64,000 nucleotides of DNA from assembly GCF_005938225.1 (NCBI RefSeq), contig NZ_VCPC01000003.1, positions 620,001 to 684,000 of the forward strand, read 5' to 3'. The stretch comes from Arenibacterium halophilum. Its GTDB lineage: Bacteria > Pseudomonadota > Alphaproteobacteria > Rhodobacterales > Rhodobacteraceae. The notes under the pieces were generated by a model. That model saw only the letters and a program-made list of their open reading frames with translations. It did no database searches and was not told the origin of the DNA. The translations under genes were made by a program, and so were the position numbers. This document shows positions 36,682 through 46,771 of the stretch, piece after piece. Each line of letters begins with the position of its first letter. The stretch's first letter is position 1.

Positions 36682-37016
36682 TACGCGGCCGCCTGTGACG
36701 GCGACAGCGCGGCGGCGTCCAGCAGCAGGCGGCCCTCTTCGATCCTGACCGGGTAGGTGGCGATGGTGGCGGTGTCGGCGCCCTGCGCCTGCCCGGTGGC
36801 CAGGTCGAACACCATGTTGTGCAGCGGGCAGGTCACGCGGGTGCCGTGCACGATGCCCTCGGACAGGGGGCCACCCTTGTGCGGGCAGGCATTGCCGGTG
36901 GCGAAGACCTCGGCGTCGCTGGTGCGGAACACGGCGATGCAGCCCGAATGCGTCTTGACCGTGCGCGCGCCGCGCAGGGGGATGTCGTCTATGTGACCAA
37001 TGTCGATCCAGCTCAT
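36681..37016 (-). CDS. nirD: NADH-dependent nitrite reductase small subunit NirD
   Basis: 111 residues. Rieske-type fold: ACPHKGGPLSEG near residue 43 and VTCPLHNMVFDLATG near 60 give the Cys-x-His and Cys-x2-His ligand pattern. NirD is the small subunit of the siroheme NADH nitrite reductase. The ATG overlaps the nirB stop (ATGA). The C-terminus is Ala-rich and short. Confidence 0.94.
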   Translation of the reverse strand: MSWIDIGHIDDIPLRGARTVKTHSGCIAVFRTSDAEVFATGNACPHKGGPLSEGIVHGTRVTCPLHNMVFDLATGQAQGADTATIATYPVRIEEGRLLLDAAALSPSQAAA

Positions 37017-39451
37017 TCCGCAGCCTCCAGGGTAAGATCGGCAAGCGGCTGCCAGGCGGGCCGCTCGGACGGGCGGGCGTGTTCGGCCCAGGGGTCGGTG
37101 CGATAGACCGATTGCGAGATCTCGAACCGGTCGACCAGCGCGCGGCGGGCGGCGGCATCGGCGATCTGGTCAACCACCCAGTCCAGCCCCACCTTGGCGA
37201 CCCATTTATAGGGCCGGTCCAGGTAACGCGCGTGTTCGCGGTAGAGCTGGACAAAGGCGGTGGTGTATTCCACGGCCTCGTCCTCGGTCGCGACCTTGGC
37301 AAGGGGTTCGGTCTCCTTCACCTCCATCCCCGCCGCTCCCGCGACGCTGATTTCAAAGCCAGAGTCGACGCAGATGATGCCGACATCCTTGCAGGTCGCC
37401 TCGGCGCAGTTGCGCGGGCAGCCCGACACGCCCAGCTTTACCTTGTGCGGCGTCCACGACCCCCAGAGGATTTTCTCCAGCCGGATGCCCAGCCCCGTGG
37501 AATCCTGCGTGCCAAAGCGGCAGAATTGGCTGCCGACACAGGTTTTCACGGTGCGCAGCCCTTTGGAATAGGCATGCCCCGACACCAGCCCGGCGTCGTT
37601 CAGATCGGCCCACATGGCGGGCAGATCGTCCTTTGACACGCCCAGCAGGTCGATGCGCTGGCCGCCCGTCACCTTGACCATCGGCACGTTGTACTTGTCG
37701 GCGGCATCGGCGATGGCGCGCAGCTCGTCCGGAGTCGTCACCCCGCCCCACATGCGCGGCACGACGGAATAGGTGCCGTCCTTCTGGATGTTGGCGTGGT
37801 TCCTTTCGTTGACGAACCGCGACTGGCGGTCGTCCTTGTAATCCAGTGGCCAGTCGGCCAGCAGGTAGAAGTTGATCGCAGGGCGGCAGACGTGGCAGCC
37901 GTTGCGCGTGGACCAGCCCAGCTCCTGCCAGACGGCCTCCTGGCTTTTCAGTTCCTGCGACTTGATCAGGCGGCGCACGTCCTCGTGGGTCAGGTCGGTA
38001 CAGCCGCAGATGCCCTTGGCCGCAGGGATCACGAAATCATCGCCCAACGTCACCGCCAGCACCTGTTCGACCAGCCCGGTGCAGGTTCCGCAGGACGCGC
38101 TGGCCTTGGTGGTGGCGCGGATGTCGTCCAGCGTGGTTGCGCCGCCTGCGATGGCCTGCGTGATGGTGCCCTTGCATACGCCGTTACAGCCGCAAATCTC
38201 CGCCTCAGGCGGCAATGCTGCAACGGCCGCCATAGGGTCCACCGGGGCACCCCCCTGGAAGGCGGGCCCGAAGATCAGCGTTTCGCGCATCTCGGAAATG
38301 TCGGTGCCGTCCTTGATCAGCCCGAAGAACCAGTTGCCGTCGGCGGTGTCGCCGTACATCACCGCGCCGATCAGCCGGTCGCCTTCGATCACCAGCCGCT
38401 TGTAGATGCCCCGGCCCGGATCGCGGAACACGATATCCTCGCGGGTGTCGCCCTCGGCAAAGTCCCCCGCGCTGAACAGGTCGCAGCCGGTGACCTTCAG
38501 CTTGGTCGACAGCTCTTTCATGGCGAATGTCGCCTCGGCCCCGGTCAGCGTGGCGGCCAGCACCTTGGCCTGATCATATAGCGGCGCGACAAGGCCGAAG
38601 AGGTTGCCGTTGAATTCGACGCATTCGCCCACGGCGAACACGTTGGGGTCGCTGGTGCGCATCTGCGCGTCGACCTTGATCGCGCGGCCACAGTCCAGCC
38701 CGCTGTCCTGTGCCAGCGCGACGGCGGGGCGGATGCCCACCGCCATCACCACGATGTCGCAGGGCAGTTCGGTGCCATCGGCCAGATTGACCTGCTGCGC
38801 GCGGCCTTCGCCGACGATCTCTTTGGTCGAGGCCTCGAGCAGGACGGTGATGCCGCGCCGCTCCAGATCCTTCTTCAGCAGGTAGCCGGCGGCCGGGTCC
38901 AGCTGACGTTCCATCAGGTGGCTGGCGATGTGCAGCACCGTCACCTCCATCCCGCGCATCCGCAGCGCGGCGGCGGCCTCGAGCCCCAGAAGCCCGCCGC
39001 CGATCACCACGGCGCGCCCACCGGGGGTGCCGCTGGCATTGGTCATGGCGGTTGTGTCTTCCAGATCGCGGAAGGCAACGACGCCGGGCAGGTCGTGCCC
39101 CGGAACCGGGACGATGAAGGCCGAAGATCCGGTGCCGAAGATCAGCTGGTCATAGGGCACCTCGCCGTTTTCACCGACCACCACCTTGCGGTCGCGATCC
39201 ACCCGCAGCACCTTTTCGCCAAACCGGCAGGTGACGCCGTGCGCCGCGTACCAATCGGCGTCATGGGTCACGATTTCCTCGTAACTCTTTTCGCCCGACA
39301 GCACGGGCGACAGCATGATGCGGTTGTAGTTGCCGCGCGGCTCGGCGTTGAACAGGGTGATGTCAAAGCCGTCGGCGTCCGCCTCCAGCAGGTGTTCCAG
39401 CGCCCGGCCCGAGGCCATTCCGGCGCCAATGATGACAAGCTTGCGTTTCAT
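37013..39451 (-). CDS. nirB: NADH-dependent nitrite reductase large subunit NirB
   Basis: 812 residues. Order of parts: FAD/NAD domain (VIIGAGMASGRALEHLLEAD at the start, VIGGGLLGLEAAAALRMRG near 150), BFD-like [2Fe-2S] segment (CGCNGVCKGTI and CGTCTGL near 425-470), a second Cys-rich segment (CGCTDLTHEDVRRLI, CHVCRPAINFY), then the siroheme/[4Fe-4S] domain (TCVGSQFCRFGTQDS near 640 and GVSGCPRNCAEATCKD near 685). It reduces nitrite to ammonium with NADH. It starts 10 bases after the GAF gene. Confidence 0.95.
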   Translation of the reverse strand: MKRKLVIIGAGMASGRALEHLLEADADGFDITLFNAEPRGNYNRIMLSPVLSGEKSYEEIVTHDADWYAAHGVTCRFGEKVLRVDRDRKVVVGENGEVPYDQLIFGTGSSAFIVPVPGHDLPGVVAFRDLEDTTAMTNASGTPGGRAVVIGGGLLGLEAAAALRMRGMEVTVLHIASHLMERQLDPAAGYLLKKDLERRGITVLLEASTKEIVGEGRAQQVNLADGTELPCDIVVMAVGIRPAVALAQDSGLDCGRAIKVDAQMRTSDPNVFAVGECVEFNGNLFGLVAPLYDQAKVLAATLTGAEATFAMKELSTKLKVTGCDLFSAGDFAEGDTREDIVFRDPGRGIYKRLVIEGDRLIGAVMYGDTADGNWFFGLIKDGTDISEMRETLIFGPAFQGGAPVDPMAAVAALPPEAEICGCNGVCKGTITQAIAGGATTLDDIRATTKASASCGTCTGLVEQVLAVTLGDDFVIPAAKGICGCTDLTHEDVRRLIKSQELKSQEAVWQELGWSTRNGCHVCRPAINFYLLADWPLDYKDDRQSRFVNERNHANIQKDGTYSVVPRMWGGVTTPDELRAIADAADKYNVPMVKVTGGQRIDLLGVSKDDLPAMWADLNDAGLVSGHAYSKGLRTVKTCVGSQFCRFGTQDSTGLGIRLEKILWGSWTPHKVKLGVSGCPRNCAEATCKDVGIICVDSGFEISVAGAAGMEVKETEPLAKVATEDEAVEYTTAFVQLYREHARYLDRPYKWVAKVGLDWVVDQIADAAARRALVDRFEISQSVYRTDPWAEHARPSERPAWQPLADLTLEAAE

Positions 39452-39461
39452 GGGCGTATCC

Positions 39462-40397
39462 TCAGCAATACCAGGCGACGATGTGCGAAAGGTGGCCGTT
39501 CAAATGGACGGGCAGGGCGACAATGGAATCGTACCCGGCGACCAGACCGGGGCCGCCGCGTTCGGCCAGCGGCAGGCCGGTGCCAAGAACGCGCCCGATG
39601 TGGCCCTGCCAGGCGGCGGCCTTGCGCGGGTTGTCTTCGTCCCACAACCGGCCTTCGCGCGCGCAGATCCCGTCGATCAGCTCGGCCCCGCCGGTCTTGC
39701 CCACGCGGGCGGGCCGGGCATCCCAGATTTCAAAGCGTCGCGCGATGGGCGTGCCCCGCGCCGACAGCAGCGTCAGCACGCAGGTTTCGCCCGAGGGCGA
39801 GGGCACAGGCAGCCCCAGCCCCGTGGTCAGCCCGGCCTTGCCCGCGCTGTCGGCCCGGATAAAACGATAGCCCGAGCCAAGGTCGCGCATCAGGATCGGC
39901 GTAAGCGAGGCCCAGACCGCCCCGGGCAACCCCTGACCGCGCGGAAAATGCGTGTGCTGGCTGATCCATTCGAAATGCTTGGCGGCGCCGTAATAGCCAT
40001 CGTCCAGCATCAGCAGATCGTCGCTCTCGCGCCAGATCTCGATGGCGCCGGTGCGGTTGTCGTCATCACCGCACAGCACCACCAGAACCGCCTTCAACTC
40101 GTCGAGGTCAAAGACCGGAATGGCGACGGCGCTGGTCAGCCCGGCCTCAGCGGCGGCTTCGATCCGCTTGAAGTATGACCCGTCAAAGCCTTTCAGCACC
40201 ACGGGGCGCTGATCGGCCCAGGCCTTGCCCGGCAGGCCCTCGCCCTTGGCGAAACTGGCGTGGCGCGAGGCTTCGGCGAAGGCGTCAAGCGTGCCGTAAT
40301 CGCCTTCGGCCAGCACAAGGCGTCCATCCCTGGGGACCCAGACTTCGGACACCTGGATGAAGGTCTTGACCGGGGTATCGACTGCAACGTCCATCAT
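39462..40397 (-). CDS. Tandem GAF-domain protein, stand-alone
   Basis: 311 residues with two similar GAF-like halves: KGEGLPGKAWADQRPVVLKG then EAGLTSAVAIPVF (about 50-105), and RGQGLPGAVWASLTPILMRD then KAGLTTGLGLPVP (about 165-220). A third, weaker segment is at the C-terminus (GGPGLVAGYDSIVALPVHLN). There is no DNA-binding, kinase or cyclase output domain. The protein ends in WYC. It overlaps nrtCD by ATGA and is followed by nirB, so it is an integral member of the nitrate operon. A ligand or redox sensor acting on transport or reduction is possible; nothing in the sequence shows its partner. Confidence 0.82.
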   Translation of the reverse strand: MMDVAVDTPVKTFIQVSEVWVPRDGRLVLAEGDYGTLDAFAEASRHASFAKGEGLPGKAWADQRPVVLKGFDGSYFKRIEAAAEAGLTSAVAIPVFDLDELKAVLVVLCGDDDNRTGAIEIWRESDDLLMLDDGYYGAAKHFEWISQHTHFPRGQGLPGAVWASLTPILMRDLGSGYRFIRADSAGKAGLTTGLGLPVPSPSGETCVLTLLSARGTPIARRFEIWDARPARVGKTGGAELIDGICAREGRLWDEDNPRKAAAWQGHIGRVLGTGLPLAERGGPGLVAGYDSIVALPVHLNGHLSHIVAWYC

Positions 40398-42097
40398 GCG
40401 GCTTCCTTCTTGGCGGGGGTTTCGGTGGGGCTGGTCGCGCTCTTGGGGGTGGCGCCGTGTTCGTATTCGGCAAGGAAGTTCAGAACCTGCTCGCGGTAGA
40501 GGTAGTAATCGGGGTGCTCCAGCAATGCCTTGCGGGTGCGCGGGCGGGGCAGATCGACATCCAGCACGCGCCCGATGGTGGCCTGCGGGCCGTTCGTCAT
40601 CATGACCACGCGGTCGGCCAGAAGGATCGCCTCGTCCACGTCATGGGTGACGCAGATGGCGGTCACCTTGGTGCGCGACCAGACCTCCATCAGCACCTCT
40701 TGCAGTTCCCAGCGGGTCAGGCTGTCGAGCATCCCGAAGGGTTCATCCAGCAGCAGCAGCTTGGGCGAGAGTGCGAAGGCGCGGGCAATGCCGACACGCT
40801 GGCGCATCCCGTTCGACATGTCGGCGGCGCCGCGATCCATCGCATCGCCAAGGCCGACGCGTTCAAGGTAGTATTCCACCACCTCCTGCCGCTCGGCCTG
40901 GCTGGCGCGGGGATAGACTTTGTCGACCCCGATGGCGACGTTTTCGCGCGCGGTCAGCCAAGGGAACAGGTTGGGCGACTGGAACACAACAGCGCGTTCC
41001 GGGTCGGCGCCTTCGACGTGGCGGCCATCCAGCTTGATCGCGCCCTTGGAAATGTCGTTCAGCCCGGCGGCCATGGTCAGCACCGTGGATTTGCCGCAAC
41101 CCGAATGCCCGATGAGCGAGATGAATTCGCCGCGATTGACCTTGAGGTTGAAGTCCTCGACGACCGTAAGCGGCCCCTTGGGCGTGGGGTAGACCTTGTG
41201 CAGCTGGCTGAAGTCGAGGAATCGATCTTCGATCAGCCCGTCCTGCGCCTGGGCCACGGCGGTGGGCAGACCGTGGATCGGGGTCACATCGGGCAGGGCA
41301 CGGGTGCCTTCGACACGCGCCTCGATCCCGATGTCCATCAGGTATGTCGTGACCTCGGCGCGCAGGCGTTTGAACGCCTCGTTGTGGTTCATCGCGCTGC
41401 GATCGCGGGGGCGGGGCAAGGCGACGGGAAATTCGCGGCCCATCCGGCCATCGGGTGTCAGCGCGATGATGCGGTCGGCCAGCAGGATCGCCTCGTCCAC
41501 GTCGTTGGTGATCAGCACGCAGGTCTGTTTCTCGCGCGCCCAGATCGCTTCGATCTCGTCCGCGAGGTTGGCGCGGGTCAGCGCATCCAGCGCCGACAGC
41601 GGTTCGTCCAGCAGCAGCATTTCCGGCGTCATCGCAAGCGCACGCGCCACGTTGACCCGCTGGCGCATCCCGCCCGACAGTTCCGCCGGGCGGCGGTTGG
41701 CGGCATGGGCCAGGCCGACCATCTTGACGTAGGTATCGACCTTGGCGGCGCGTTCGGCGGCGGGCATCTTCGGGAACACCGTATCGACCGCCAGCGCCAC
41801 GTTGCCGTTCACCGTGAGCCAGGGCATCAGCGAGTAGTTCTGAAAGATCACGCCGCGCTCGGGCCCGGGGCCGGTGATCGGCTTGCCCTTGAAGGTGACG
41901 CTGCCCTTGGTGGGCTGTTCCAGCCCAGCCATCAGGTTGATCAGCGTCGTCTTGCCGGTGCCGGAGAAACCCAGAAGGACCAGGAATTCGCCCTCCTGCA
42001 CCGAGAGATCGATGTTTTTCAGGACGGGGTTGGCGTGGGTGCCTTCGCCGAAGGTCTTGGACACGCCGTTGAAATCGAGAATGCTCATGACGGTCAC
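40394..42097 (-). CDS. Nitrate ABC importer ATP-binding protein, two NBDs fused (NrtC-NrtD type)
   Basis: 567 residues holding two complete nucleotide-binding domains. NBD1 (about 5-260): Walker A GFSGTGKTT, signature LSGGMRQRVNVARAL, Walker B LLLDEPLSALD, switch segment LITNDVDEA with Asn in place of His. NBD2 (about 295-545): Walker A GHSGCGKST, signature MSNGMRQRVGIARAF, Walker B LLLDEPFGMLD, switch THDVDEA. The pair thus has one consensus and one altered switch. It energises nitrate import with NrtA and NrtB. Start is GTG at 42097 overlapping the nrtB stop (GTGA); ATG at 42088 is an alternative. Confidence 0.92.
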   Translation of the reverse strand: MTVMSILDFNGVSKTFGEGTHANPVLKNIDLSVQEGEFLVLLGFSGTGKTTLINLMAGLEQPTKGSVTFKGKPITGPGPERGVIFQNYSLMPWLTVNGNVALAVDTVFPKMPAAERAAKVDTYVKMVGLAHAANRRPAELSGGMRQRVNVARALAMTPEMLLLDEPLSALDALTRANLADEIEAIWAREKQTCVLITNDVDEAILLADRIIALTPDGRMGREFPVALPRPRDRSAMNHNEAFKRLRAEVTTYLMDIGIEARVEGTRALPDVTPIHGLPTAVAQAQDGLIEDRFLDFSQLHKVYPTPKGPLTVVEDFNLKVNRGEFISLIGHSGCGKSTVLTMAAGLNDISKGAIKLDGRHVEGADPERAVVFQSPNLFPWLTARENVAIGVDKVYPRASQAERQEVVEYYLERVGLGDAMDRGAADMSNGMRQRVGIARAFALSPKLLLLDEPFGMLDSLTRWELQEVLMEVWSRTKVTAICVTHDVDEAILLADRVVMMTNGPQATIGRVLDVDLPRPRTRKALLEHPDYYLYREQVLNFLAEYEHGATPKSATSPTETPAKKEAA

Positions 42098-43167
42098 CGG
42101 TTGTTGGTAAATGTGAACAGGGATTGCAGCGCGAACATCACCCGGTCGAGAAGGAAGCCGATGATGCCGATGGTGAAGACGGCCACCATGATGCGCGCGA
42201 GGCTGCTGGAGGAGCCGTTCTGGAATTCATCCCAGACGAATTTCCCGAGCCCGGGGTTCTGGGCCAGCATCTCGGCCGCGATCAGAACCATCCAGCCCAC
42301 GCCCAGCGAGAGGCGCAGCCCGGTGAAGATCAGCGGCAGGGCCGAGGGCAACACGAGGCGGGTAATTTTTGTCCAGGTGGTCATCTTGAGCACCTTCGAG
42401 ACGTTGACCAGATCCTTGTCGATCGAGGCGACGCCAAGGGCAGTGTTGATCAGCGTCGGCCAGAGCGAACAGAGCGTGACGGTGATGGCCGAGACAAGGA
42501 ACGACTTGGCGAACAGCCCGTCGTTGGTGGTGTAGACGGCGGCGACGACCATGGTGACGATGGGCAGCCAGGCCAGCGGCGAGACCGGCTTGAAGATCTG
42601 GATCAGCGGGTTCAGCGCCGCATTCGCGGTGGGTGACAGGCCGGCGGCGATGCCCAGCGGGATCGCGACGACCGAGGCCAGCAGGAAACCGAAGAAGACC
42701 GTCAGGATCGAGGTGCCGATCTGCTGGTAATAGGAAGGCGCGCCGGTGAAGGGGATGTCTTTCACGCGCTCGGGCTGGCCCCGGTCGATGAAACGCTGGT
42801 TGCGGGCGTCGACGCGGGCGTAGTGGTCAGCGCGCTGTTCGGCCTTCTGCGCGGCGTCCTGGTGCAAGGTAACTGCTTCGTTCCAAACCTGCACCGGGCC
42901 GGGGATCGCGCCCAGCGAGGTTTGCACCTGCGGGGCCAGCACGCCCCAGAGCGCGAGGAAGCAGAGGATGGCCAGCATGGGCACCCCGGCGAGGCGCCAG
43001 AGGTCGCGCATCTGGGCGCGGGGGTTGTCGCCGGCGGCCGCGCGCAGGATCGGCGTGATCCAGGCCAGGCCAAGCACTTGGAACCATTTGTCGGCGGCGT
43101 TGATGCGGGTGAACCGGCGCGCGCGGCGGGCGTCGGCGTCGAGGCTGGTCGGGTCGATGGCGGTCAT
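42094..43167 (-). CDS. nrtB: Nitrate ABC importer permease NrtB
   Basis: 357 residues, about 80 longer at the N-terminus than many NrtB. About six membrane helices follow residue 70. An insert near 110-155 rich in charged residues precedes TM2. The EAA loop is seen as SIDKDLVNVSKVLKMTTWTK followed by ITRLVLPSALPLIFTGLRLS near residue 265. It forms the membrane channel for NrtA-delivered nitrate. It is separated from nrtA by a 111-bp gap holding a large stem-loop. Confidence 0.92.
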   Translation of the reverse strand: MTAIDPTSLDADARRARRFTRINAADKWFQVLGLAWITPILRAAAGDNPRAQMRDLWRLAGVPMLAILCFLALWGVLAPQVQTSLGAIPGPVQVWNEAVTLHQDAAQKAEQRADHYARVDARNQRFIDRGQPERVKDIPFTGAPSYYQQIGTSILTVFFGFLLASVVAIPLGIAAGLSPTANAALNPLIQIFKPVSPLAWLPIVTMVVAAVYTTNDGLFAKSFLVSAITVTLCSLWPTLINTALGVASIDKDLVNVSKVLKMTTWTKITRLVLPSALPLIFTGLRLSLGVGWMVLIAAEMLAQNPGLGKFVWDEFQNGSSSSLARIMVAVFTIGIIGFLLDRVMFALQSLFTFTNNR

Positions 43168-43278: not shown

Positions 43279-44646
43279 TCAGCCCTGCACTTCGTTGCCG
43301 ACGACTTTCTGGTCGCCCTTCAGGCCGATCGGAAGGCTGTCGAGGTAGGCGTTGGGCGCCGTCGCATCGAAGGGGATCGCGTCGATGATGTCATCGGCCG
43401 GGGTCGGTGCCTTGTAGCCGGTGCTGTCCCAGGGGAAATCGGCCTCGTCGGCCAGACCTTCGTCGACCAGCAGGCGCGCGGCCTCGAGGTAAATCTCGGG
43501 CTTGTAGACCGATTTCGCCACTTCGTCGTACCAGCTGTCGGGCTTGGCCTCGGCGATCTGGCCCCAGCGGCGCATCTGGGTCAGGTACCAGACGGCGTCC
43601 GAATAGAACGGGTAGGTCGCGTTGTAGCGGAAGAATACGTTGAAATCGGGCACCTCGCGGGTGTCGCCCTTTTCGTATTCGAAGGTGCCGGTCATAGAGT
43701 TGGCGATCACCTCGGCGTCGGCGCCCACGTATTCAGGACGCGACAGGATTTCGACCGCCTCCTCGCGGTTGGCGTTGTCGTTTTCGTCCAGCCACATGGC
43801 CGCGCGGATCAGCGCCTTGGTCACGGCGAGCGTGGTGTTTGGGTTCTGCTCGGTAAATTCCGCCGTCATCCCGAAGACTTTCTCGGGGTTGTTCTTCCAG
43901 ATTTCGAAATCGGTGATCACCGGCACGCCGATGCCCTTGAACACGGCTTGCTGGTTCCACGGCTCGCCCACGCAGTAGCCGTTGATGGTGCCGGCCTCGA
44001 GCGTTGCGGGCATCTGCGGCGGCGGGGTCACCGACAGGAACACATCGGCGCCGATCTGGCCGGTCACGTTTTCGGGGCTGTAGTAGCCGGGGTTGATGCC
44101 GCCGGCAGCCAGCCAGTAGCGCAACTCGTAATTGTGCGTGGACACGGGGAACACCATGCCCATGTTGAACGGCTTGCCGGCGCTGCGGAAGCTGTCGATC
44201 ACAGGCACCAGCGCGCTGGCCGAGATCGGGTGCTGCGGGCGGCCATCGTCCATCATGGTCAGGTTGGGTTTCATCATCTCCCAGACCTCGTTCGATACGG
44301 TGATGCCGTTGCCATTCAGATCCATCGAGAAGGGGGTGACGATATGCGCCTCGGTGCCATACCCGATGGTGGCGGCCAGCGGCTGTCCGGCCAGCATGTG
44401 CGCCCCGTCCAGCGTGCCGGAAATCACGCCATCCAGCAGCACCTTCCAGTTGGCCTGTGCCTCGAGCGTGACGAACAGGCCTTCGTCATCAAAGAACCCC
44501 TGTTCATAGGCCACGGCCAGCGGGGCCATATCGGTCAGCTTGATGAAGCCGAAGGTCAGTTCGTCCTTTTCCAGGTCCAGCATCTCGGCCGACAGCGGCC
44601 CGGCCAGGGCGGTGGAGGCAGCGAGGGTGGCAAGTATCTTTTTCAT
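43279..44646 (-). CDS. nrtA: Nitrate ABC importer substrate-binding protein NrtA
   Basis: 455 residues. A signal peptide ([20 protein letters not shown]) precedes a mature NrtA/CmpA-type domain: [58 protein letters not shown] near 230-250. Members bind nitrate, nitrite or bicarbonate in the periplasm; the operon fixes nitrate/nitrite as the ligand. The ATG at 44646 is chosen because it begins the signal peptide; upstream sequence is the attenuator leader. NasS, encoded just before, is its cytoplasmic paralogue. Confidence 0.94.
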
Positions 44647-44691: not shown

Positions 44692-44743
44692 AAAAAAACA
44701 GCCGCTGACAATCCCTGCGGAGGACGCAGAGTGTCGAGCGGCT
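44692..44743 (-). terminator. Attenuator terminator in the nrtA leader
   Basis: On the minus strand AGCCGCT-C-GACA pairs with TGTC-AGCGGCT around an inner hairpin CTGCG...CGCAG, followed directly by G and seven T (44692-44698). It is an intrinsic terminator 46 bases before nrtA. Its 5' arm contains the 3' side of hairpin P2, so terminator and P2 exclude each other. Confidence 0.88.
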
Positions 44744-44803
44744 TTGCTCATCGAACCCAGTCATTGGGAGAAATCGGTGTTCTGGGCGCCATTGCCTTGA
44801 ACA
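44736..44803 (-). ncRNA. ANTAR (NasT) target: two-hairpin antiterminator RNA
   Basis: P1 (44778-44803): TGTTC/GAACA outer stem, AA/CA internal loop, GGC/GCC inner stem, hexaloop AATGGC. P2 (44736-44749): GAGC/GCTC stem, hexaloop AAAGCC. Both loops have A at position 1 and G at position 4, the known ANTAR recognition rule. P2 overlaps the 5' arm of the terminator. The ANTAR protein NasT is encoded immediately upstream. Expected logic: free NasT stabilises P1-P2 and lets transcription pass; NasS without nitrate sequesters NasT. Confidence 0.82.
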
Positions 44804-44910: not shown

Positions 44911-46089
44911 TCAGTCCGGGCGCTTGGGGTCAAAAATGCGGCGGTCAAAAAACGAATCGCGCAGCAGGGTCAGGCGCCCTGATTCCGAGGCGACGGGTGC
45001 CTCGTGCAGAACCGAGCCTTCAATCTTGTCCGAGGCGCCGGGCAATTCGGCGCCCACGTCGCGCAGCATCCGGCGATAGATATCGGTGCGGAACACGTCG
45101 CGGGCGGTGCGGATCGCCTCGGCCCGGTCCAGCCCGGTGCGCGCGGCCAGCTGCCGCCCGATCCACGCGGCCTGCGACCGCCACGGATAGGTTGCCGCGC
45201 CATGGTGGAATTCAAGGAACCGCTCGACCCGGCGCTGTTCGCCATTGGCCGCGATGGTCAGATGCCCGACCAGCGCGCGGTCGATGATCTCGGGCGGCAC
45301 GTCCAGATATTCGGGGCGCGACATCAGCTCGGACGCGGCGGTGTGGCTGTCGGGCTGGGCCAGCCAGCGCCCGGCGCGCCAGACGGCGCGCATCAGGCGG
45401 CCCAGCAGCTGGGGTTCGGTTTCGGCCCAGTCGGTGCGCACGGCCAGCACCTTTTCCGGCGCAAAGGCCCAGATCGCATTGCCGGGCAGCAGCAACTCTC
45501 CCAGACCGTTTTCCACGGCCATCGAGCCCCAGGGTTCACCCACGCAGAAGGCGTCGATTTCTCCGGCGGCGATGGCATCGGACATCAGCGGCGGCGGCAC
45601 GGTGTGGATTTCCACGCTTTGCGGCGCGGGCAGGCCAAGCGCGTTCAGCCAGTAATACAGCAGCTCGGCGTGCATCGAGAAAGGGAAGGGTACGCCAATG
45701 CGCAGCCGCCCCTGCGCCGCCGCGATCAGCGCCTTGCCGGCCGCCGTGGCATCGGCGAAATCGAACGCAAAGCCCGCGTCGCGCAGCCGGTTGGCGACTG
45801 CCTGACTGACGCCGATGGCATCTCCGTTCACGCTAAGGACCGACACAGCCGAGAGCGGCGCGCCGCCGCCGCCCAAACCCAAGGCCAGCGCAATCGGCAC
45901 GGGTGACAGCATATGCGCCGCATCGACCCGGCCAAACGCCAGCATATCGCGAATACCCGACCAGGACGGCGCGCGCTTCAGCTCCAGCTCGATGCTTTCC
46001 TCGCGGGCGAACCCCATCTCGCGCGCGACGATCAGCGGCGCGGCATCGACCAGCGGCATGAAGCCGACCGACAACCCCGTTGCGCTCAT
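44911..46089 (-). CDS. nasS: Nitrate/nitrite sensor NasS
   Basis: 392 residues. An NrtA-like periplasmic-binding fold without a signal peptide (starts MSATGLSVGFMPLVDAAPL), so cytoplasmic. Shared landmarks with NrtA: MGFAREESIELELKRA, AAHMLSPVPIALALG, PPPLMSDAIAAGEIDAFCVGEPW near 180-202, VFRTDIYRRMLRDVG. In Paracoccus and Azotobacter NasS holds NasT inactive until nitrate or nitrite binds. The ATG at 46089 overlaps the nasT stop (ATGA), giving balanced synthesis of the pair. Confidence 0.93.
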   Translation of the reverse strand: MSATGLSVGFMPLVDAAPLIVAREMGFAREESIELELKRAPSWSGIRDMLAFGRVDAAHMLSPVPIALALGLGGGGAPLSAVSVLSVNGDAIGVSQAVANRLRDAGFAFDFADATAAGKALIAAAQGRLRIGVPFPFSMHAELLYYWLNALGLPAPQSVEIHTVPPPLMSDAIAAGEIDAFCVGEPWGSMAVENGLGELLLPGNAIWAFAPEKVLAVRTDWAETEPQLLGRLMRAVWRAGRWLAQPDSHTAASELMSRPEYLDVPPEIIDRALVGHLTIAANGEQRRVERFLEFHHGAATYPWRSQAAWIGRQLAARTGLDRAEAIRTARDVFRTDIYRRMLRDVGAELPGASDKIEGSVLHEAPVASESGRLTLLRDSFFDRRIFDPKRPD

Positions 46090-46670
46090 GACAACAGCCC
46101 CGCGGCCGTCACCAACGCCTCGGCAACGTCGACAATCTTGCGGTTCTGTTCCATCGCGGTGCGCCGCAGCAGGGCATAGGCGGCATCTTCGTCCAGCCCG
46201 CGCGCCTTCATCAGCAACCCCTTGGCGCGGTCGATCACCTTGCGTTCTTCCAGCGCGCGGCGCGTCGCGGCCAGTTCGGTGCGCATCCGGCGAAACATGT
46301 GAAACCGTGCCACCGCCGCATCCAGCACCGGCTTCAGCCGGTCGGCGCGCAGCCCGTCCACCACATAGGCCGACACGCCCGCCTCGATCGCCGAGGTGGT
46401 CAGCCCCGCGCCAGAGCGGTCGACGAACATTGCCACCGGCCGGTCCATCGGCCCCGAGGCCAGCGCCAGTTCTTCCAGCGTGTCGCGCGAAGGATTGGCG
46501 ATGTCGATCAGCACCACGTCGGGGTTCTGCTCGCTGATCCGGCGCGCCAACCCGGTGACTTCGCCCACGACGGTGATCTTGTAGTCGCCCGCCTCGCGCA
46601 GGCTGTCGACGATCAGCAAGGCGCGCTCGCGGTCGGATTCGACGACAACAATGGAAAGTGGCTCGGCCAT
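46086..46670 (-). CDS. nasT: ANTAR-domain transcription antiterminator NasT
   Basis: 194 residues. The N-terminal receiver-like domain (LSIVVVESDRERALLIVDSL, DVVLIDIANPSRDTLEEL) is followed by a helical linker and a C-terminal ANTAR RNA-binding domain (ERKVIDRAKGLLMKARGLDE, AYALLRRTAMEQNRKIVDVA). ANTAR proteins bind paired hexaloop hairpins to prevent termination; the matching RNA lies at 44736-44803. The ATG at 46670 begins the receiver fold; one 15 bases upstream (46685) is possible. Confidence 0.94.
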   Translation of the reverse strand: MAEPLSIVVVESDRERALLIVDSLREAGDYKITVVGEVTGLARRISEQNPDVVLIDIANPSRDTLEELALASGPMDRPVAMFVDRSGAGLTTSAIEAGVSAYVVDGLRADRLKPVLDAAVARFHMFRRMRTELAATRRALEERKVIDRAKGLLMKARGLDEDAAYALLRRTAMEQNRKIVDVAEALVTAAGLLS

Positions 46671-46771
46671 GCTGCATTGCAACATCACATTTGCTGCAGG
46701 CGCAAGGGGCGGCGCATCGGGCGCGTCGGGGCGCCGCATGGCGTGGCGCGCAAACGGGCAGGACCAAACGC

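Follow-up and report, generated by a model that had tools for sequence, protein, structure and literature searches.

Two hairpins with similar hexaloops are the hallmark of the leaders that are controlled by ANTAR antiterminators. In the targets of EutV the hairpins are separated by 5-12 nt, and with a linker of 3 or 14 nt, or with 20 nt inserted in vitro, antitermination is lost or falls drastically (PMC3369931, PMC8934654). G4 of the loop stacks on Tyr164 of EutV, Met172 fills the loop and A1 aids loop folding (PMC8934654). It is unsettled how two hexaloops serve a single ANTAR dimer, and the crystal structure of EutV suggests sequential visits, for which close spacing is needed (PMC8934654). 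In Paracoccus denitrificans, nitrate dissociates NasS from NasT and NasT binds the nasA leader (PMC3795266), in which two hairpins have been named, HI and HII, with hairpin I being essential for induction (PMC5424462). Two hairpins suffice for the binding of NasR to the nasF leader of Klebsiella oxytoca (PMC7496416), and NasT of Bradyrhizobium diazoefficiens has several targets, nosR, nirA and others (PMC6759348).

Here we analysed the leader of nrtA in Arenibacterium halophilum, within a stretch of 64,000 nucleotides (the window; all coordinates are positions in it). The leader resembles the eut leaders of Enterococcus faecalis in its C-G-closed hexaloops with A1 and G4 and in a second hairpin (P2) that overlaps the 5' arm of a terminator, and its regulator, like EutV, joins a response regulator to an ANTAR domain and shares the Tyr and Met of EutV. 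However, the two hairpins of EutV leaders stand 5-12 nt apart, whereas the window leader has three hairpins, with 28 nt between the first (P1) and P2; and EutV is phosphorylated, whereas NasT of the window would, by analogy with P. denitrificans, be held by NasS. With P. denitrificans the locus shares the order nasT-nasS-leader-transporter (PMC3795266, PMC5424462), but the transporter there is the MFS protein NasA and in the window the ABC protein NrtA. With the NasR/nasF system of K. oxytoca it shares the predicted nitrate-controlled antitermination, the A1/G4 hexaloops and the terminal C-G pair, although there sensor and ANTAR domain are in one protein. B. diazoefficiens likewise has NasT antitermination in an alphaproteobacterium, with several NasT targets, whereas a single leader was found in the genome studied here. 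The type of switch is already known, but the window leader and its relatives depart from the published two-hairpin model by a conserved third hairpin, Pm.

The nitrate assimilation locus

The genes are all on the minus strand, in the order nasT, nasS, leader, nrtA, nrtB, nrtCD, a GAF-like gene and nirB. The nasT gene (46086-46718) encodes a pseudo-receiver and ANTAR RNA-binding protein (Pfam ANTAR, E 2.9e-22), with phmmer matches to 1s8n, 6wsh (EutV), 4akk (NasR) and 1qo0 (AmiR); in the phmmer alignment its Tyr and Met fall on Tyr164 and Met172 of EutV. It is the only ANTAR gene in the whole genome and adjoins the leader locus. The nasS gene (44911-46110, 5' end provisional) encodes an NMT1_2-type nitrate/nitrite sensor (Pfam NMT1_2, 1.6e-63). 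A receiver-like ANTAR protein and an NMT1-type sensor are therefore encoded by adjacent genes upstream of nitrate assimilation genes, and the Pfam matches bear out the preliminary description, which had placed NasS and NasT directly upstream of the leader.

The first gene past the switch is nrtA (43279-44646; Pfam NMT1_2, 1e-92), encoding a nitrate-binding protein. It starts at 44646, leaving an intergenic leader of 264 nt after nasS. It is followed by nrtB (42094-43167; TIGR01183, below the cut-off) and a fused two-domain nrtCD (40394-42097; TIGR01184, over the cut-off), and the last gene is nirB (37013-39451; TIGR02374, 2.3e-263), for the assimilatory nitrite reductase. Between nrtCD and nirB lies a gene for a GAF-like protein without an assigned role (39462-40397; Pfam GAF_2, 8.9e-11). 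This protein consists of two similar halves, and a search of NCBIfam gave no family name for it. Possibly it serves the nitrate operon as an additional sensor.

Two ANTAR hairpins and a terminator ahead of nrtA

From 5' to 3' the leader contains a palindrome, a possible promoter, the hairpins P1, Pm and P2, and the seven-T terminator; an inverted repeat lies between this terminator and the start of nrtA. P1 (44803-44778, minus strand; TGTTC AA GGC-AATGGC-GCC CA GAACA; -8.8 kcal/mol) has the hexaloop AATGGC at 44793-44788, and P2 (44749-44736, minus strand; GAGC-AAAGCC-GCTC; -4.0 kcal/mol) has the hexaloop AAAGCC at 44745-44740. Both loops carry A1 and G4 and are closed by C-G. The intrinsic terminator (44743-44692, minus strand) starts within the P2 loop. 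Its 5' arm, AGCCGCTCGACA (44743-44732), is paired in 11 of its 12 bases with one C bulged out, and its 3' arm, TGTCAGCGGCT (44710-44700), is followed by a G and by seven T at 44698-44692. The preliminary description had proposed a NasT/ANTAR attenuator ahead of nrtA, and its two hexaloops with A1 and G4, its terminator with seven T overlapping P2 and its shared strand, which makes P2 and the terminator mutually exclusive, were all found on the minus strand exactly as described.

The terminator alone folds with -27.9 kcal/mol (z -4.2), and none of 200 shuffled sequences folded as well. P1 and P2 folded singly are of ordinary stability in comparison to shuffled sequences, with z near 0, so it is conservation and not stability that shows them to be real. 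Given -27.9 kcal/mol for the terminator and -4.0 kcal/mol for P2, P2 needs a protein to win.

The combination of an A1/G4 hexaloop hairpin with an overlapping U-tailed terminator was found at one site in the 64 kb and at none in the reversed window, and there is no second copy of the P2 string in the window. A covariance model built from the relatives, with the window leader included in its seed, matched one leader site in the 4.6-Mb genome (E 1.8e-16), and the next match had E 2.7. As for further NasT targets, the model gave only matches of E 2.7-3.9 beyond the leader, which we do not believe. Searching the window with Rfam, at the gathering threshold and up to E 5, gave no matching family; a weak match to BcKCsr2 (E 1.6) was taken as chance. 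The plus strand folds with the same stability as the minus strand, which merely mirrors the inverted repeats.

Conservation of the leader in Rhodobacteraceae

Our first family sample consisted of the nasT neighbourhoods of 22 genomes, from which two contigs ending too early and one locus with another nrtA type (L038) were set aside. All 19 readable leaders had the order nasT-nasS-leader-nrtA with P1, P2 and the terminator. In relatives that share the leader, NrtA is mostly 75-89% identical. We aligned these 19 leaders with that of the window (20-leader alignment). P1 shows no variation there in its A1, its G4 or its closing C-G pair, and its helix is 100% paired with two covarying pairs; at P2, loop position 1 is G in one of the 20 leaders. 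P1 was located by an A1/G4 search in most leaders, so that the A1/G4 counts at P1 arise partly by construction and are not independent evidence.

Among 80 further named loci, from Rhodobacteraceae such as Leisingera, Phaeobacter, Salipiger, Limimaricola, Celeribacter and Paracoccus, 45 passed a strict scan for P1, P2 and the terminator, and in several more, which failed only the pattern, all three were visible by eye. The reversed controls gave no match in the window and one match, without P1, in the outgroup loci.

The overlap of P2 with the 5' arm of the U-tract terminator is kept in the relatives, and a change in the P2 loop goes along with one in the 3' arm, as in L032, where the loop is AATGCT and the arms are ATGCTGC and GCAGCAT. 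These observations bear on the idea that the terminator just ends the nasTS operon and that nrtA has its own unregulated promoter downstream. The location between nasS and nrtA would suit such a terminator, as would the lack of a consensus promoter upstream, but the conservation of P2 inside the terminator arm, the compensatory changes in the 3' arm and the mutants of P. denitrificans (PMC5424462) speak against this idea, and we find it hardly credible. As all 19 leaders keep the same anatomy, and as a single ANTAR gene and a single leader match were found in the genome, antitermination by NasT at the nrtA leader, a mechanism known in kind, is judged from these sequences to be very likely.

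A third hairpin between P1 and P2

The linker between P1 and P2 is 28 nt long when measured from the outer stem of P1 and 35 nt from its inner 3-bp stem. Longer spacers abolish antitermination by EutV, and the statement in the preliminary description that the geometry matches the published ANTAR rule therefore did not hold. Measured from the P1 stem, the linker is 27-39 nt long in 55 of 57 distinct leaders. The two-hairpin account was also incomplete, as it had missed Pm, a covarying hairpin at 44768-44756 on the minus strand (CCCA-ATGAC-TGGG), which is separated by 9 nt from P1 and by 6 nt from P2. Only with Pm counted do the gaps of the window leader come within the 5-12 nt of EutV targets. 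Because of its linker length the leader is not a plain member of the ANTAR attenuators, and we conclude that the NasS-NasT system here has a three-hairpin ANTAR attenuator, which departs from the published description in this one feature.

In the window Pm has 4 bp (-3.5 kcal/mol), and its loop is a pentaloop or a 7-nt loop and not an ANTAR-type hexaloop. The window linker showed no excess of stability over shuffled sequences (z -0.2), and when folded alone and unconstrained it preferred other pairing over Pm. As Pm is insignificant in the window alone, the claim for it rests on the family.

In the 20-leader alignment, unguided RNAalifold gave just three hairpins, P1, Pm and P2. The helices of the three hairpins together were paired in 95.5% of cells, and all three pairs of Pm vary on both sides; a plain MAFFT alignment reduces the pairing of Pm to 85%. 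The covariation score of the three helices was 0.446, in comparison to 0.172±0.027 in 500 shuffles and at most 0.105 when the partners were slid. Over the 57 distinct linkers the best-hairpin scores summed to 725, as compared to 576±17 for dinucleotide shuffles (8.5 sd above), and the linker folding energies of the 57 distinct leaders summed to -473, as compared to -354±16 for shuffled sequences. A hairpin of the Pm type stood 3-9 nt before P2 in 88% of these leaders and in 33% of shuffled ones. The agreement of RNAalifold, covariation and the hairpin test on the 57 linkers indicates that Pm is a real element of the family.

These data also bear on a plain two-hairpin attenuator in which the sequence between P1 and P2 is unimportant. 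P1, P2 and the terminator do show every published feature except spacing. However, a linker of 27-39 nt containing a covarying hairpin is found in almost all relatives, and long linkers abolish antitermination by EutV, so that we consider this explanation improbable.

The idea that the middle loop is always an ANTAR loop was rejected for the window clade, in which 6-nt loops carried A1 in 14 of 24 and G4 in 11 of 24 cases. In the 7-nt loops, with the stem chosen regardless of the loop, G4 was found in 23 of 30 and A5 in 18 of 30, the G content of these linkers being 24%. Positions 1 and 7 of these loops are often pairable, which gives a pentaloop NNGAY.

Middle hairpins in a second clade and in other families

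A second clade of Rhodobacteraceae, with a TAT-type nrtA (L038, L066, L075, L080, L088, L099, L100, L102, L110 and L112), has a full ANTAR hairpin at the position of Pm, with A1, G4 and the C-G closure in all ten leaders, for example ACCGC-AAGGAT-GCGGT. For L100, from Pseudotabrizicola formosa, the unguided script preferred other pairing and the hexaloop was read from the hairpin listing instead, and in five others the script paired A1 with T6, so that the loop can also be read as a tetraloop. From loop to loop, P1 and Pm are about 28 nt apart in both clades, and Pm and P2 are 20 nt apart in the window clade and about 24 nt in the second. Within one bacterial family there is thus a gradation in the middle hairpin, with a full ANTAR hexaloop at one end and a degenerate loop at the other.

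In the nasS-nasA gap of P. denitrificans DSM 413 (L096) we read the three A/G-type hexaloops AACGGC, AATGAT and GACGAT, 25 and 23 nt apart. The terminator-like stem downstream, GAAAGCGC..GCGCTTTC, has no U tract, whereas the window terminator has seven T, which suggests that termination there may be other than by a simple intrinsic terminator.

For a wider comparison, 40 nasT neighbourhoods from other families were used, and in a minority of them the scan found sites that had a partner hairpin upstream. L168, L170, L171 and L173, which belong to other classes of the phylum, have the canonical two-hairpin spacing of 22-27 nt from loop to loop. Distances of 41-66 nt, with a hairpin between, were found in L136, L137 and L144 of the same class and also in L158 and L160 elsewhere in the phylum; in the latter two a plain long stem can serve as the middle element. 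There are exceptions, namely L154 of the same class with 27 nt and further, wider sites in L168, L170 and L173, and a distribution of short- and wide-spaced leaders by taxon is only an impression. Near nasT, two separate attenuator-like sites were seen in each of L168, L170 and L171. Outside Rhodobacteraceae, L144 and L173 have three A1/G4 hexaloops in a row, which in L144 are full.

Proposed mechanism and the role of the middle hairpin

Taken together, we consider it highly probable that this is a nitrate-responsive NasT attenuator with three hairpins, P1, Pm and P2. The hairpins, their overlap with the terminator and the gene order are conserved in this leader system, and NasT has the contact residues. 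Release of NasT by NasS and binding of NasT to RNA we infer for this organism by analogy. Without nitrate, NasS would hold NasT, the nascent RNA would fold the terminator (44743-44700 and the seven T), and transcription would stop about 110 nt from its start. In the presence of nitrate or nitrite, NasS would release NasT, which would bind the hexaloop of P1 and then that of P2. P2 would thereby capture AGCCGCTC and block the terminator, and the polymerase would continue into nrtA-nrtB-nrtCD-GAF-nirB. Pm would divide the gap of 28 nt into 9 and 6 nt, each in the range that suits ANTAR dimers. In our view it may be descended from a third ANTAR hairpin and may still take part in the hand-over of NasT from P1 to P2.

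Whether NasT makes contact of some kind with Pm we regard as evenly balanced. One form of such contact is an array of three ANTAR hairpins, in which NasT, forming hexamer-sized oligomers in P. denitrificans, would bind P1, Pm and P2 sequentially or jointly, with Pm of the window clade drifting from a hexaloop to a 7-nt loop or pentaloop that keeps the G. We hold this tentatively, at somewhat under an even chance. If it is true, antitermination spans a loop-to-loop distance of about 50 nt, which is double that known from EutV. A third loop presented to NasT is favoured by the conserved G of the loop and by the full hexaloop of the sister clade, and the degenerate loop in the window clade keeps a role as a spacer in play.

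As a structured spacer only, Pm would shorten the long linker for a NasT dimer that does not touch it. This would agree with its covarying stem, its fixed position and the window loop, which is not a hexaloop, as well as with the plain long stems of L160 and L158 outside the family and with the short linker required by EutV. A pure spacer, however, would free the loop, whereas G4 and A5 are kept in the 7-nt loops in the proportions given above, and the sister clade has the A1/G4 hexaloop throughout; we rather doubt this explanation, possible as it is. Pm is located upstream of the 5' arm of the terminator and conflicts with neither fold, so that it can be folded in both states. The same position would allow Pm to act as a pausing hairpin, slowing the polymerase so that NasT loads before the terminator forms, but the conserved G and the ANTAR-type counterpart in the sister clade fit protein binding better, which makes pausing an unlikely role. 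It may also be that the spacing rule of EutV does not apply to NasT.

Our search, which covered the open literature, gave no report of a third ANTAR hairpin. Natural leaders that combine twice the EutV spacing with a conserved middle hairpin offer a direct test between a spacer and a third binding site. The leader family further provides a model better suited to finding NasT targets; Rfam is without one, and short-linker two-hairpin models would miss them.

Elements flanking the switch

The palindrome CCGCATTGCGG at 44879-44869 (minus strand) is probably an activator site upstream of the promoter, since related motifs of the type CYGCAWTGCRG were found in 21 of 66 nrtA leaders (mean of 0.4 in shuffled sequences), mostly about 80 nt before the P1 loop. 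A possible promoter was read from the sequence at 44838-44810 on the minus strand, with a -35 element TTGACG (44838-44833), a spacer of 17 nt and a weak -10 element GTAAAC (44815-44810); a scan of the leader for sigma-70 consensus promoters gave no site. Over the 66 leaders, TTGA[CA] occurred 21 times 42-50 nt ahead of the P1 loop. From this promoter we infer that transcription starts close to the foot of P1, near 44805, and the terminated leader transcript would accordingly measure about 110 nt, the length that the preliminary description had guessed.

Between the terminator and the nrtA start there is an inverted repeat, GCCCAGG-N10-CCTGGGC (44688-44665, minus strand). Many relatives have repeats at this position that differ in sequence and often have a CCTCC-rich loop, with a summed score 3.2 sd above shuffled sequences. 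One further record, L091, is titled Nocardioides marinus and contains a nasT-nasS-nrtA locus of the Rhodobacteraceae type; it looks like a mislabelled or contaminated assembly.
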